Origin: Fodinisporobacter ferrooxydans
GTDB taxonomy: Bacteria; Bacillota; Bacilli; Tumebacillales; MYW30-H2
Length of the DNA stretch: 64,000 nt
Assembly (NCBI RefSeq): GCF_022818495.1
Contig: NZ_CP089291.1
Location: 2,745,501-2,809,500 of the forward strand
Direction: 5' to 3'
Both the position numbers and the translations under genes were made by a program. The notes under the pieces were generated by a model. That model did no database searches, was not told the origin of the DNA, and saw only the letters and a list, made by a program, of their open reading frames with translations. Each line of letters opens with the position of its first letter. Position 1 is the first letter of the stretch. Below, piece by piece: positions 20,043-26,292 of this stretch.

Positions 20043-20505
20043 CAGAAACCTCCGGATATCAGCAGGATGTCAATCCGGAGGTTTCTCCCTATCATTATAT
20101 AAGCAATTATAATCACTTATAGCTTCGTTCCGTTTTGCGGTCTTGCTTTGGGCGCAATTCATGCAACAGTTTCGTCAGCGCGCGTTTTTCGATCCGCGAC
20201 ACATAGGATCGCGATATGCCTAACTCCTCCGCAATCTCTCGTTGTGTCTTTTCATCGCCATCCGGCAGTCCGAAGCGTCCACGAATCACTTCCTGTTCCC
20301 GCTCATCCAAAAGGGAGAGGTGATTGTATATTTTTACCTTTTCCAATTTTAATTGGACTTCATCTACAACTTCATCGGAGTCTGAGCCGAGAACGTCGAT
20401 CAATGTGATTTCATTGCCTTCTTTATCCGTGCCAATCGGGTCATGCAGGGATACGTCTTTGCGGGTTTTTTTCAATGAACGCAAATGCATGAGAATCTCA
20501 TTTTC
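20043..20505 (+). repeat. right direct repeat: sigK 3' end and terminator
   Basis: This is the intact counterpart of 12733-13017: same terminator hairpin, same downstream AAGCAATTATAATCACTTATAG tract-like spacer and the same sigK C-terminal codons, with the extra 177 bp present. The outer end of homology coincides with the hairpin base (CAGAAACC). Confidence 0.9.
20044..20086 (-). terminator. terminator shared by sigK and the iclR gene
   Basis: A perfect 14-bp stem (AGAAACCTCCGGAT at 20044-20057, ATCCGGAGGTTTCT at 20073-20086) lies between the convergent iclR and sigK stops. The duplicate lies at 12734-12776. The T-tracts are short in both directions; stem strength makes up for it. Confidence 0.75.
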
Positions 20506-20835
20506 GATACATCTTGCTGCATATGTTGCCAATTTTGTCCCTTTATTGGATTGAAAACTTTCAATGGCCTTGATTAAACCAATCGTACCGATCGAAATTA
20601 AATCTTCACTGTCTTCGCCTGTATTTTCAAATTTTTTGACAATATGTGCGACTAGCCGAAGGTTATGTTCGACGAGTAAGTTTCGGGCGTTTTCATCACC
20701 TTGTTCCATTCGTTTCAGACATTCTGCTTCTTCCTGCTCGGATAATGGCTGTGGGAATGCGTTATTTTTTATATACGACACAAAAACAGTAAGCTCTCTC
20801 AGCAATAACGCCAACGCCGTTATAATTCCGGGCAT
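20113..20835 (-). CDS. sigK: RNA polymerase sporulation sigma factor SigK (intact)
   Basis: This is the late mother-cell sigma factor, 240 residues. The start [20 protein letters not shown] is a hydrophobic pro-sequence of the kind removed by SpoIVFB, followed by mature [16 protein letters not shown], as in B. subtilis SigK. Region 2 ([32 protein letters not shown]), [20 protein letters not shown] and region 4 ([20 protein letters not shown]) are complete. GGAGGTGA lies 7 nt before ATG 20835, so the longer frame to 20925 is not used. The gene is uninterrupted here, unlike B. subtilis sigK split by the skin element, but a damaged copy of its 3' part lies at 12802-13017. Confidence 0.97.
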
Positions 20836-21072
20836 GCTGCTGTCACCTCCAAGTTGTGAATCACACCCAACCGCGTGTGTTTCAGTATATGATGCTTGCT
20901 GGGCATCTGTGCATGTCTCAAACAATTTGATGCTCGTCCAGTTTTTCTTTTTCCTTTTTTCTTCGATGATATGAATGGAAACAGGTGAAACAGCTTCTAC
21001 ACCAGAAATTCATATTTCCTTCATAACTTCCGTTTACGATAAATACATAACAAACCTATGGGGGTATAAAAG

Positions 21073-21870
21073 ATGAAGAAGCTTCTGATTGCAATACCGG
21101 CGTTAGTTGCAGGTGTGGTCATTGGCCAATTTGCAGTTTCTCAAGCATTCACACCGAGCAATACACAAATGTCGAGCGTGCAAAACTCTACAATTTCCAA
21201 TCAAAACGGATTCGGCATGATGGGAAGCGGCGCATCAGGTGCAGGAAGCGGCTATTCCGGCATGATGGGAAGCGGCGTGTCAGGTACAGGAAGCGGCTAT
21301 TCCGGCATGATGGGGAGTGGCGTGTCAGGTGCTGGAAACGGCTATTCCGGCGGTATGGGAGGAATGATGGGGGGATGGAATACTCAGGTATCCCAAATTC
21401 CATCAACAGATGTGGACAAAGAAGTATATGCTTCGTTGCAGAACGCGGTAATTGATAAAAAAGCAAATACGATCACTTATAAAGGAAATGATGTGAAAAT
21501 CGTACTGCTGGCAAAGATGAATGACGCATCCAATCGGAAAGATGACACTTTTGTCGTGGGAGGATTGATCAATCCTGCCATCCATGTTCAAAAAGGCGCA
21601 AAAGTTTCTTTGGAGCTCATCAACGAGGATAACGATATGCCGCATGGGCTCGAGATCACGCCGGCTTCTCCTCCATATCCGTACATGTCCATGATGGCGG
21701 GAGGAATTTACCCTGGTTCGTTTATTCATCCCATCCCGGAATCGACCAATACGCAATTTGCGACAGCATCCACAACATTCACAGCCGATCAGAGCGGTGA
21801 GTTTCACTACTTGTGTGAATACCCCGGTCATGCACAAAAAGGAATGTATGGAACTTTTGTGATTGGCTAG
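21073..21870 (+). CDS. secreted blue-copper protein, rusticyanin/sulfocyanin-like
   Basis: This 265-residue exported protein has a signal or anchor helix (about 4-25), a flexible Met/Gly/Ser/Tyr repeat region (49-100) and a cupredoxin domain (about 115-265). The type-1 copper ligands are visible as His191 (NDMPHGLEIT), Cys248, His253 and Met258 (LCEYPGHAQKGM). The Cys-x4-His-x4-Met spacing is the one in rusticyanin, and the His-to-Cys gap (57) is close to rusticyanin's 53. Such proteins carry electrons outside the membrane, for example in iron oxidation. No oxidase or cytochrome gene is adjacent, so its partner is unknown. The gene stands alone with its own terminator. Confidence 0.88.
   Translation: MKKLLIAIPALVAGVVIGQFAVSQAFTPSNTQMSSVQNSTISNQNGFGMMGSGASGAGSGYSGMMGSGVSGTGSGYSGMMGSGVSGAGNGYSGGMGGMMGGWNTQVSQIPSTDVDKEVYASLQNAVIDKKANTITYKGNDVKIVLLAKMNDASNRKDDTFVVGGLINPAIHVQKGAKVSLELINEDNDMPHGLEITPASPPYPYMSMMAGGIYPGSFIHPIPESTNTQFATASTTFTADQSGEFHYLCEYPGHAQKGMYGTFVIG
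21217..21351 (+). repeat. 45-bp tandem repeats encoding a Met/Gly/Ser linker
   Basis: Three in-frame copies of 45 bp encode MMGSG(A/V)SG(A/T)G(S/N)GYSG at residues 49-93 of the blue-copper protein. The Met content could allow extra copper binding; length variation between strains is expected. Confidence 0.9.
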
Positions 21871-21926
21871 CATGTTTGGATGTAAATACTTTTCTGGGCA
21901 AGTAAATCGAAAATCGAATCCTGGAA

Positions 21927-21964
21927 AATTAACCCCCTTCCAAGCGTTTTGGAAAGGGGTTAAT
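21927..21964 (+). terminator. bidirectional terminator
   Basis: A long stem TTAACCCCCTTCCAA / TTGGAAAGGGGTTAA lies between convergent genes (blue-copper on plus, betaine-binding on minus), with A/T-rich flanks on both sides. Confidence 0.85.
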
Positions 21965-22046
21965 TTATTGCTTTGGAGGGAGATTCTTTATTATTGAAGC
22001 AAGTAGAGATTCGCCTGTTGATTCGGTCTCTTGCCAGGACTGTTGA

Positions 22047-22928
22047 TTAGGAATGGAACCACGTGTTGATTACGCTTTGATTGTCGTGAATCCATTTTTT
22101 TACTCCCCGTTCGGTTGAGTTTGTTTGATTGATGTCCTCTTCAAGTGTACCTAATTGGCCGGGTGTCAATTTGAAGGTTTTGAGCCATTTGGCAGCTTCC
22201 GGATGACTTGTCACCCAAGTCTTGTTTGCTTCTGTCTGAATTCGGCCTGCTTTTCCAAATACTTCTTTTGGATCTGACAAGTATTTGAGATGGTATTTGG
22301 TGAACGCCCAGTGCGGGCTCCAGAGTGTGACAACGATTGGCTTTTGCTCTTTGTAAGCCCTTTCCAGTGAGCTTAACATGGCCGGTGCCGAACTCTCTAC
22401 AAGTTTAAGCGGCAATCCGTAATCGCTGATTGCTTTTTGTGAAAGCTGCATTTCCACAGCGCCAGGGTCGATGCCGACAATTTGATTGTTAAAGTTTGCG
22501 GCGTATTGTTTCAAATCCGCAATGGAATTTACATTCTTCATATAGCTGGGGACAACAAACCCTTCTTTCGTATCCCCCGTGTACCATTGCCCCAGATTTT
22601 CAATGTTTTCTGAATATTTTCCAATATATTGGTTTTGTTCTGGCAACCAAGAGTCAAAAAAGACGTTCACTCCATTTTCCGAGAGACCGGAGAACAGGGG
22701 ACCTAATGATAAATTTTTGAGTGTTACATGGTACCCTTTTTCCGTTAACAGGTCTTTCCATAAATACGTAGTTGCTACATCTTCTGTCCAATTCACGTAG
22801 CCGATCGTTATGTTTTTGTCTCCGGAATCCTGAGCCGGGTTGGATGCATTTGCTCCACAACCGGCCAATACTGCTGCTGCCAGGAAAGCGCCTGTAAATC
22901 CGGTTATGATTTGTTTTTTTGTATTCAT
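22047..22928 (-). CDS. glycine betaine/proline-type ABC substrate-binding lipoprotein (OpuAC family)
   Basis: This osmolyte-binding protein has 293 residues with lipobox VLAGCG and an OpuAC-type domain: ITIGYVNWTEDVATTYLWKD, DSWLPEQNQYIGKY, VSNIADLKQY-like segment NSIADLKQYAANFNNQIVGI, and VVTLWSPHWAFTKY with the Trp/His/Trp residues used to cage quaternary amines. AAAGGAGG is 7 nt before ATG 22928. It is an orphan: no permease or ATPase is adjacent. A c-di-AMP riboswitch in the same orientation lies 560 bp upstream, beyond a MITE; such riboswitches often control osmolyte uptake, so the original unit may have been riboswitch plus this gene. Confidence 0.9.
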   Translation of the reverse strand: MNTKKQIITGFTGAFLAAAVLAGCGANASNPAQDSGDKNITIGYVNWTEDVATTYLWKDLLTEKGYHVTLKNLSLGPLFSGLSENGVNVFFDSWLPEQNQYIGKYSENIENLGQWYTGDTKEGFVVPSYMKNVNSIADLKQYAANFNNQIVGIDPGAVEMQLSQKAISDYGLPLKLVESSAPAMLSSLERAYKEQKPIVVTLWSPHWAFTKYHLKYLSDPKEVFGKAGRIQTEANKTWVTSHPEAAKWLKTFKLTPGQLGTLEEDINQTNSTERGVKKWIHDNQSVINTWFHS

Positions 22929-22986
22929 GTATTTCCTCCTTTTGATATACATTTCATATCTTTTAAAAGTATTCGATACTAGAGGA

Positions 22987-24558: not shown

Positions 24559-24715
24559 TCAAAAAGATGTCATTCCTTGTTTCGAATGATTGATTGAAAT
24601 GAACGGTATACTTTTCTTTTCCACTTGCACAAAATGGGCTCTTGACGCAGGAGCAATCGTCAACATTGGAACGTATGATTACATAGGCGATTGTTCAGGA
24701 AAGGAGGAGTGTGTG

Positions 24716-25027
24716 TTGCTTTACGACTATGAAAGCCAATGGGACGCTTTTTTTGGCAGAAATACGGATATACAACAGTCGCAGCCAAAATTGGAATATG
24801 TACCGGGCAAACCGCAGCACATGGTTTTGTCACAGCAGGATGAATCCGGAATTCCATTCATGCATGGAACGGGATTTGCGCCCACCGGTTATCCGGTGTA
24901 TCATCCTGCCTATTATCCATATGGAGTGCCTGTTTTACCGGTGTATCCATATTTGATGAACCCACCTGGCTCTACGGAGCCATCGGGGTATGTACGATTT
25001 CCCTCGTATATGTTTTTGATTCCTTAA
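24716..25027 (+). CDS. Tyr/Pro-rich small protein, probably spore-associated
   Basis: An AAAGGAGG at 24700-24707 points to TTG 24716 (8 nt) or GTG 24713 (5 nt) rather than the upstream ATG 24590, which has no such site. The product (about 103 aa) is hydrophilic at first (LLYDYESQWDAFFGRN), then rich in Tyr and Pro (YPVYHPAYYPYGVPVLPVYP), a composition seen in spore coat and outer-layer proteins. It ends 14 nt before a GH18 hydrolase of the spore-cortex-lytic type, and the two are probably one operon. The family is not recognised. Confidence 0.6.
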   Translation: MLYDYESQWDAFFGRNTDIQQSQPKLEYVPGKPQHMVLSQQDESGIPFMHGTGFAPTGYPVYHPAYYPYGVPVLPVYPYLMNPPGSTEPSGYVRFPSYMFLIP

Positions 25028-25041
25028 AGAAAGGAGGTACC

Positions 25042-26292
25042 ATGATGCCGGATGGAGCAAATGTGTATACGGAAGCCGTTGTAAATGTCAATGTGGCGAA
25101 TATTCGGCTGGAACCTTCCATACACTCTCCTGTCATTACACAAATGGAACGCGGGGCAAGGCTGCCGGTCACAGGCAGTTCCGGTCAGTGGATTCGTGTT
25201 CTCTTATACAATAGTCGATTGGGATGGATTTCGAGAGACATCGTGAGTGTGGTTCCCAATGCAAGAAATCGTCCTGTTCAGGAAATTTTGGTGTATTATA
25301 CGGAACAAGAAGGACCCGAGCTTCCGAGTTCCTATCAATCCTTTGTGGCCAACGTTGCGGAGATTTCCGACGTTGGGCTGTTTCATTTTCGAATTGACCG
25401 CCAAAATCCAACCCAAGTTGCAAAATTGTATGAATTCGATTCGTCATATATGAGACGATTGGTGGAATTTGGGCATCGCCACAATGTAAAAATGCTTCCC
25501 GTCGTTAGCAACCTGCTTTATGAAAGAGGGAAACAAGGTGTCAATAAAGATGTGATTCGCGGCATGCTCAGTACGTCAGATAATCGCAGCACATTCATCG
25601 CCAATCTTTTAATGCTTATACAAGAGTACGGATTTGATGGCATCCACATCGATTTTGAAGATGTTTACTTTGAGGATCGGTTTCTGCTTGCAACGTTTTA
25701 TCAGGAGTTGGGGGACGCGTTAAGAAAAAGGGGATACCATTATGTTGTCAGCACACCCGCCCGAACTTCCGACCATCCGACAAATCCTTTTTCTGCTTCC
25801 TTTGATTATGGTTTGATTGGCAGTGCTGTCAATGAGTTTGTAGCCATGTTGTATAATGAGCACGGATGGCCTGGAAGTGGTCCGGGTCCGGTAGTATCGA
25901 TCGGATGGATGGAAAAGGTGATCCGATATGCAATGACGAAGATGCCGGCCGGTAAAATTACGGCTGCAGTATCGGTATTCGGGTTTGACTTTAATTTGAC
26001 TACCGGTAAAATTCAATATGCCACATACGCAATGGCAATGAGCCTTGCGTCCAGATATGGACAATCGATCATTTTTGATCAAAAAAGCCAGACTCCGATG
26101 TTTCGGTACACAGATCAAGCGGGCAATCGACATGAAGTGTGGTTTGAGAACGCAGAGAGCATTCGTGCAAAATTAAACTTGGCACATCGATTGGGAATTC
26201 GAGGCTTGGCATTGTGGCGTTTGGGAATGGAAGATCCTAATCTTTGGAATATGCTGAAAAAGGAGTTTGTCATTAAAAAAGGGGAACTGTAG
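25042..26292 (+). CDS. GH18 glycoside hydrolase with SH3b domain (spore peptidoglycan hydrolase type)
   Basis: The 416-residue protein has an N-terminal bacterial SH3 domain (about 15-72; NVANIRLEPSIHSPVITQME) and a glycosyl hydrolase 18 barrel (about 82-400). The catalytic DxxDxDxE is at residues 199-206 (DGIHIDFE), with YNEHGWPGSGPGPV and GIRGLALWRLGMEDP completing the site. It resembles YaaH/SleL/YvbX enzymes that cleave spore cortex glycan during germination, although those carry LysM rather than SH3 modules. No signal peptide is present, as is usual for mother-cell-made spore enzymes. AAAGGAGG precedes; ATG 25042 or 25045 may be used. Confidence 0.88.
   Translation: MMPDGANVYTEAVVNVNVANIRLEPSIHSPVITQMERGARLPVTGSSGQWIRVLLYNSRLGWISRDIVSVVPNARNRPVQEILVYYTEQEGPELPSSYQSFVANVAEISDVGLFHFRIDRQNPTQVAKLYEFDSSYMRRLVEFGHRHNVKMLPVVSNLLYERGKQGVNKDVIRGMLSTSDNRSTFIANLLMLIQEYGFDGIHIDFEDVYFEDRFLLATFYQELGDALRKRGYHYVVSTPARTSDHPTNPFSASFDYGLIGSAVNEFVAMLYNEHGWPGSGPGPVVSIGWMEKVIRYAMTKMPAGKITAAVSVFGFDFNLTTGKIQYATYAMAMSLASRYGQSIIFDQKSQTPMFRYTDQAGNRHEVWFENAESIRAKLNLAHRLGIRGLALWRLGMEDPNLWNMLKKEFVIKKGEL

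Follow-up and report, generated by a model that had tools for sequence, protein, structure and literature searches.

The hallmarks of rusticyanin are a midpoint potential of about +680 mV and stability in acid. AcoP of A. ferrooxidans, whose copper ligands follow the pattern C-X6-H-X4-M, is a component of an iron-oxidising supercomplex that also contains rusticyanin and CoxB; in Sulfobacillus, homologues of AcoP encoded next to cox genes have been noted before (PMC4059628). Another blue-copper electron carrier of acidophiles is sulfocyanin (SoxE). Rusticyanins have been reported from Sulfobacillus and from members of the Bacillales, Alicyclobacillus among them (PMC6803676, PMC10654088). In view of these reports, the blue-copper protein with rusticyanin spacing that an earlier note on the DNA studied here pointed out in a Gram-positive spore former is no novelty. 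The protein described below is a further member of the known group of Gram-positive rusticyanins.

Its host, Fodinisporobacter ferrooxydans MYW30-H2, is a spore former isolated from a polymetallic mine heap with a pH optimum of 4.0 and weak Fe(II) oxidation of ~30 mg/L per day (PMC11123200). The published genome comprises 4.86 Mb in one contig with twelve 1544-bp 16S genes and 44.2% GC (PMC11123200). In the main text of that description neither rusticyanin nor any cytochrome is mentioned, and no mechanism for Fe(II) oxidation is offered (PMC11123200). The sequence that we searched, by protein family and in stretches, is 4,856,687 bp long in one contig and carries 11 complete 16S genes of 1544 bp plus one broken-up copy. 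The latter aligns in separate pieces only (G000:C1:2181171-2182500), possibly reflecting masked sequence or a broken gene.

The rusticyanin-like gene lies at positions 21073-21870 (plus strand) of the window, the whole stretch of 64,000 nucleotides that was analysed. It is a monocistronic ORF of 265 codons with an ATG start, assigned by the TIGR03095 profile and by rusticyanin chains in the PDB. A likely ribosome-binding site, GGGGG, can be read directly from the sequence at 21060-21064 (plus strand). The translation begins with two lysines and a hydrophobic stretch of ~20 residues (aa 1-25, 21073-21147), which may act as a signal peptide or a membrane anchor. Cleavage between SQA and the following F appears possible, and the translated N-terminus has no lipobox Cys. 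A Gly/Ser/Met-rich repeat linker with the unit GMMGSGVSGAGSGYS follows (aa 45-103, 21205-21381). The underlying DNA is a 45-bp tandem repeat at 21213-21351 (3.1 copies, 91% match, each unit encoding 15 residues), and residues 44-103 contain 25 Gly, 11 Ser and 9 Met, in agreement with the Met/Gly/Ser repeat linker of the earlier note. The C-terminal part, aa 112-265 (21406-21867), is a rusticyanin-type cupredoxin domain of ~155 residues including its N-terminal extension, as delimited by AlphaFold2 modelling, structure comparison and Foldseek.

A terminator-like hairpin 3′ of the gene (21926-21966, plus strand; 11+6 bp stem, −21.8 kcal/mol, followed by AUUUAUU) was missed on the plus strand by a terminator consensus scan, and a consensus scan of the flanks of the gene found no sigma-70-like promoter. 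The gene stands alone because its upstream neighbour, a sporulation-type sigma factor identified by reading only (20113-20925, minus strand), is divergent and its downstream neighbour, a substrate-binding lipoprotein of the ABC type (22047-22952, minus strand), is convergent. Further downstream, at 24590-26292, the window encodes a short Tyr/Pro-rich protein and then an SH3/glycosidase-like protein, both of which read as spore-cortex- or coat-like. The GC content of the cupredoxin domain (0.449) resembles that of the genes of the window (0.442) and gives no foreign signal.

Profile, fold and ligands give strong support to a rusticyanin-type identity of the protein. TIGR03095, the NCBIfam rusticyanin profile, matches residues 127-264 with an E-value of 8.3e-29, and a PDB sequence search returned nine rusticyanin chains as the nearest solved structures (E 5.8e-15 to 7e-13). 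For residues 99-265, AlphaFold2 modelling on the basis of 29 homologues reached a mean pLDDT of 89.7 and a pTM of 0.87. Compared by VIA-align 2, the model matched all nine listed rusticyanin entries with Z-scores of 21.1-23.5 and rmsd values of 1.8-2.0 over 150-155 residues, whereas the best match outside rusticyanin, the cupredoxin domain of a nitrite reductase, did not exceed a Z-score of 13.8. Foldseek agreed, with an E-value of 7e-15 for rusticyanin versus 1e-8 for the next family. The match spans the full length of the domain, N-terminal extension included, and with the A. ferrooxidans protein (PDB 1RCY, 2CAK) it covers 151 residues at a Z-score of 23.5.

Alignment to rusticyanin, numbered from the ATG, places the copper ligands at His191 (21643-21645), Cys248 (21814-21816), His253 (21829-21831) and the axial Met258 (21844-21846), equivalent to His85, Cys138, His143 and Met148 of rusticyanin and exactly as numbered in the earlier note. 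All four are conserved across the alignable homologues and invariant in a 30-row alignment; in the Vulcanisaeta copy the reading frame is disturbed after its Cys. The C-x4-H-x4-M spacing is not diagnostic on its own since auracyanins share it, and the family assignment rests on the whole domain. Searches for other cupredoxin types were negative. Sulfocyanin was rejected by a TIGR03094 score of 22.9 bits against a cut-off of 168.4 and by the lack of a PF06525 match, nitrosocyanin by the lack of a TIGR03096 match, and a CuA site by the lack of a COX2 match and by the single Cys in the whole protein, as CuA has two; the model likewise does not resemble nitrosocyanin or CuA, an outcome that the earlier note would have taken as a refutation. 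The copper-resistance cuproprotein CopI was rejected as well, as NF051440 scored 17.1 of 280 bits and over the last 35 residues only.

We nevertheless prefer the name rusticyanin-like for two reasons. The TIGR03095 score of 100.7 bits falls short of the curated equivalog cut-off of 146.7 bits, which none of the Bacillota homologues found passes, and Gly192 follows His191 where rusticyanin has Ser86, a residue that tunes redox potential and acid stability (PMC10654088). In other respects, too, the protein is unlike its A. ferrooxidans counterpart. Identity over the domain is about 30%, the long Gly/Met linker and the N-terminal anchor or signal are additional, and the gene lies outside any rus operon with cytochromes and cox genes. 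The architecture recurs in the rusticyanin-like proteins of Sulfobacillus, two of which occur in S. thermotolerans Kr1 (PMC6803676). They share the N-terminal hydrophobic segment, the MMG linker and the rusticyanin domain, although domain identity to proteins of the Sulfobacillia class is 28-43% and they fall into a separate clade.

The gene is present once in the host genome and absent from 13 other genomes of the host's order. At E ≤ 1e-10, matches were obtained in five of 398 sampled Bacillota genomes, six of 45 genomes of one family (f15) and 33 of 154 genomes of the Sulfobacillus-containing class. Family f15 very probably consists of Desulfosporosinus-type sulfate reducers; one of its genomes, G168, we take to be Desulfosporosinus acidiphilus. 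This genus is strictly anaerobic and has four acidophilic members (PMC11096178). The f15 proteins are the closest relatives found, with 55-58% domain identity, and all but one carry an MMG linker. In a maximum-likelihood tree they form one clade with the window protein (support 95/99), apart from the other homologues. A first tree had nested the window gene within f15 (93/83 and 97/92). With two long branches removed, however, a separate f15 clade was compatible with the AU test (p 0.28), and we therefore claim shared ancestry with f15 but no direction of transfer. Since one to eight MMG motifs precede the domain in nearly every homologue, the Met/Gly linker is a general trait of the clade.

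No homologue was detected in the plasmids or viral contigs searched. A contig pattern search, in which several patterns came from the N-terminus and linker, for that reason yielded two archaeal relatives only and was outperformed by the family searches; a literature search for rusticyanin in related genera found nothing. Two observations concern G168. Adjoining its rusticyanin-like gene is an ORF (L020:14241-14771, plus strand) whose product resembles the rusticyanin-like protein in its N-terminus and Met/Gly repeats; the part read shows no sign of a cupredoxin domain, and the ORF may therefore encode a linker-only paralogue. The neighbourhood of the rusticyanin-like gene also includes, at L020:2582-8738, a NapH-like polyferredoxin gene, ResB/ResC- and CcdA-like genes related to cytochrome-c biogenesis and a gene for a small triheme protein with three CxxCH motifs, a context hinting at an anaerobic electron-transfer role in this probable sulfate reducer.

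A candidate partner oxidase, for which a genome search had been proposed, was found approximately 1.1 Mb away; the earlier note would have counted the absence of any high-potential respiratory partner as a refutation. The host has five haem-copper oxidase genes, and one of them, at 3.863 Mb, belongs to a sulfocyanin-AcoP operon that is unmentioned in the species description (G000:C1 ~3860000-3867300, minus strand; L061:2982-10260). As established by profiles and reading, the operon encodes in order a 178-aa SoxE lipoprotein (PF06525, 41.8 bits, cut-off 21), a 226-aa protein, CoxB with the CuA motif CAEVCGAGH, CoxA, CoxC, an 81-aa CoxD-like protein, a 393-aa membrane protein and the haem O synthase CtaB. 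The 226-aa protein has a twin-arginine-like start and matches no Pfam or NCBIfam family. A profile of its family finds AcoP of A. ferrooxidans (7z3b) with an E-value of 8.7e-26. Its model, of modest confidence (mean pLDDT 67.6, pTM 0.59), is also closest to AcoP (Z 14.0, rmsd 2.3 Å, 120 residues; next family 9.2). In 14 homologues H110 and C205-x6-H212-x4-M217 are invariant, and the gene adjoins coxB. Profile, predicted fold and ligand pattern thus identify the 226-aa protein as an AcoP homologue. Compared with the rus operon of A. ferrooxidans, the host operon has an AcoP homologue and CuA-type CoxB, CoxA, CoxC, CoxD and CtaB in common but starts with sulfocyanin in place of Cyc1/Cyc2. Moreover, the rusticyanin-like gene of the host is located elsewhere in the genome, and the host has no outer membrane.

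The operon is syntenic with those of the Sulfobacillus type, with 58-65% identity in CoxA. Among 64 genomes tested, an AcoP homologue was found in 11, namely the host and ten Sulfobacillus-like genomes, and in none of 13 relatives from the host's order or 12 f15 genomes. In S. thermosulfidooxidans, Sulth_0449 (subunit 3), Sulth_0450 (subunit I), Sulth_0451 (subunit II) and Sulth_0453 (SoxE) belong to a cluster, Sulth_0449-0453, that was up by 1.7-3.6 log2 when the strong iron oxidiser Leptospirillum was absent (PMC6315122). From gene order, this cluster would correspond to the host operon. Homologues of the 393-aa membrane protein occur near rusticyanin-like genes in six of the 24 flanks examined. 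In one of these flanks, from G550, the homologue carries a fused sulfocyanin domain (L094:6005-7720, minus strand; PF06525, 41.6 bits), while its membrane part has no Pfam family; the fusion gene and the rusticyanin-like gene share a strand and lie a short distance apart. By association, these arrangements tie together the rusticyanin-like gene, the membrane protein, sulfocyanin and the oxidase.

The remaining haem-copper proteins of the host were rejected as partners. One of the quinol-oxidase type (2.316 Mb), one ba3-like (1.617 Mb) and two NO-reductase-like (4.849 and 1.580 Mb), they are accompanied by neither AcoP nor SoxE. One ORF (L060:2701-3564) in a nickel-insertion-like context, close to the genes of the quinol oxidase, encodes a long His-Asp repeat (HHHDHHHD...).

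We regard as most likely, though only tentatively, that the window protein is an exported type-1 copper protein acting as an electron carrier for Fe(II). The Gly/Met repeat linker would serve as a flexible tether that holds the cupredoxin domain at the cell surface or within the wall and could span part of the latter. At the outer face, the domain would be reduced by Fe(II), either directly or via another oxidant, and would pass the electrons to the membrane-bound SoxE sulfocyanin lipoprotein and the AcoP homologue with its TAT signal. From these, electrons would enter an aa3-type oxidase through its CuA centre for the reduction of O2. We infer the electron path and its direct partners, and likewise the high redox potential, export, the type-1 copper and the surface location.

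The proposal of the earlier note, extracellular electron transfer and perhaps iron oxidation, thus survives as a plausible role. It is favoured by the rusticyanin identity and by a host species that oxidises Fe(II), and it is strengthened by the operon, which among the genomes tested is otherwise restricted to Sulfobacillus-like ones. Several observations argue against it. The gene lies by itself, ~1.1 Mb away from the oxidase, Gly replaces Ser86, and nothing in the operon evidently corresponds to the c-type cytochromes of the A. ferrooxidans chain. In addition, several relatives of the gene lie near copper-handling or two-component genes, and the closest ones, in f15, are found in hosts without an AcoP oxidase, where matches to haem-copper oxidases are weak and alike in members with and without the rusticyanin-like gene.

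A bolder version, which we consider rather unlikely as a whole, is that this Gram-positive cell respires iron over an essentially all-copper wire. Electrons would run from Fe(II) to a wall-spanning rusticyanin-like protein and via sulfocyanin/AcoP, CuA and haem a3 to O2, through no dedicated c-type cytochrome, in a chain assembled horizontally from two acidophile sources, one Desulfosporosinus-like (rusticyanin-like protein) and one Sulfobacillus-like (oxidase). The absence of a dedicated cytochrome c is hypothetical. Two haem-c proteins were detected in the host genome, a cytochrome b-complex fusion and one beside nitrogen-oxide genes, with a family search that may miss unusual cytochromes.

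The main and serious rival to the Fe(II) role is copper buffering, or a double role. The protein could mainly serve as a surface copper buffer that captures Cu(I)/Cu(II) with its Met-rich linker and type-1 site and so shields a bacterium that comes from a mine, iron redox chemistry being incidental or secondary. We judge this less probable, yet a real possibility. The MMG-repeat linkers of nearly all homologues fit a buffer well, and the closest relatives, probably anaerobes, would be unable to use the protein for O2-linked iron oxidation. Gene neighbourhoods point in the same direction. In roughly half of the 24 flanks, those of f15 among others, genes for response regulators and histidine kinases lie no more than ~8 kb away; a Met-rich sensor domain accompanies them in G016 and G430, and genes for P-type ATPases with an HMA domain are near the rusticyanin-like gene in five of the 24. 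A rusticyanin of S. thermotolerans is encoded in a plasmid-like region with copA/copZ/csoR, and a role in copper resistance was raised by the authors (PMC6803676). E. coli becomes resistant to copper when it carries A. ferrooxidans Rus, and the levels of rus genes increase in response to copper (PMC7463520). On the other hand, no copper gene adjoins the rusticyanin-like gene in the window, and a full rusticyanin fold with a complete electron-transfer site exceeds what sequestration needs. Moreover, the host oxidises iron and owns an AcoP/SoxE oxidase that is missing from the tested relatives in its order.

Cupredoxins commonly serve nitrite and nitrous oxide reductases. The window protein might accordingly donate electrons to a copper nitrite reductase or a nitrous oxide reductase, like cupredoxins of the azurin type, but we consider such a function in denitrification improbable. 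The host does carry possible acceptors at ~1.577-1.587 Mb, where a NirK-like protein, a second haem-copper protein of the NO-reductase type and a nos-type cluster were named by reading. The rusticyanin-like gene is unlinked to them, however, a lipoprotein cytochrome c in the nos-type cluster is a more obvious donor, and nitrate reduction by the species is reported to stop at nitrite (PMC11123200). The presence of this region, with a NirK-like lipoprotein and a long NO-reductase-type protein (G000:C1 ~1576900-1584000; L064:3899-10784), despite that reported phenotype is an observation in its own right. Least probable of all is that the gene came in recently as a hitch-hiker and that its role has decayed in the host, as its absence from the rest of the order and its well-supported grouping with f15, a family of another class, are countered by an intact ORF with intact ligands, its own ribosome-binding site and terminator, and a GC content like that of the surrounding genes.

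The occurrence of a rusticyanin-like protein in apparent anaerobes raises the question of how safely iron oxidation can be deduced from 'rusticyanin' in metagenomes. For the host itself, the Fe(II) carrier reading provides a specific, testable chain in an iron oxidiser without a published mechanism. How electrons are taken up from Fe(II) by cells without an outer membrane has been described as unclear for Sulfobacillus (PMC6803676). As the F. ferrooxydans genome offers one named, single-copy rusticyanin-like gene and one named oxidase operon, this question becomes testable by expression and deletion.
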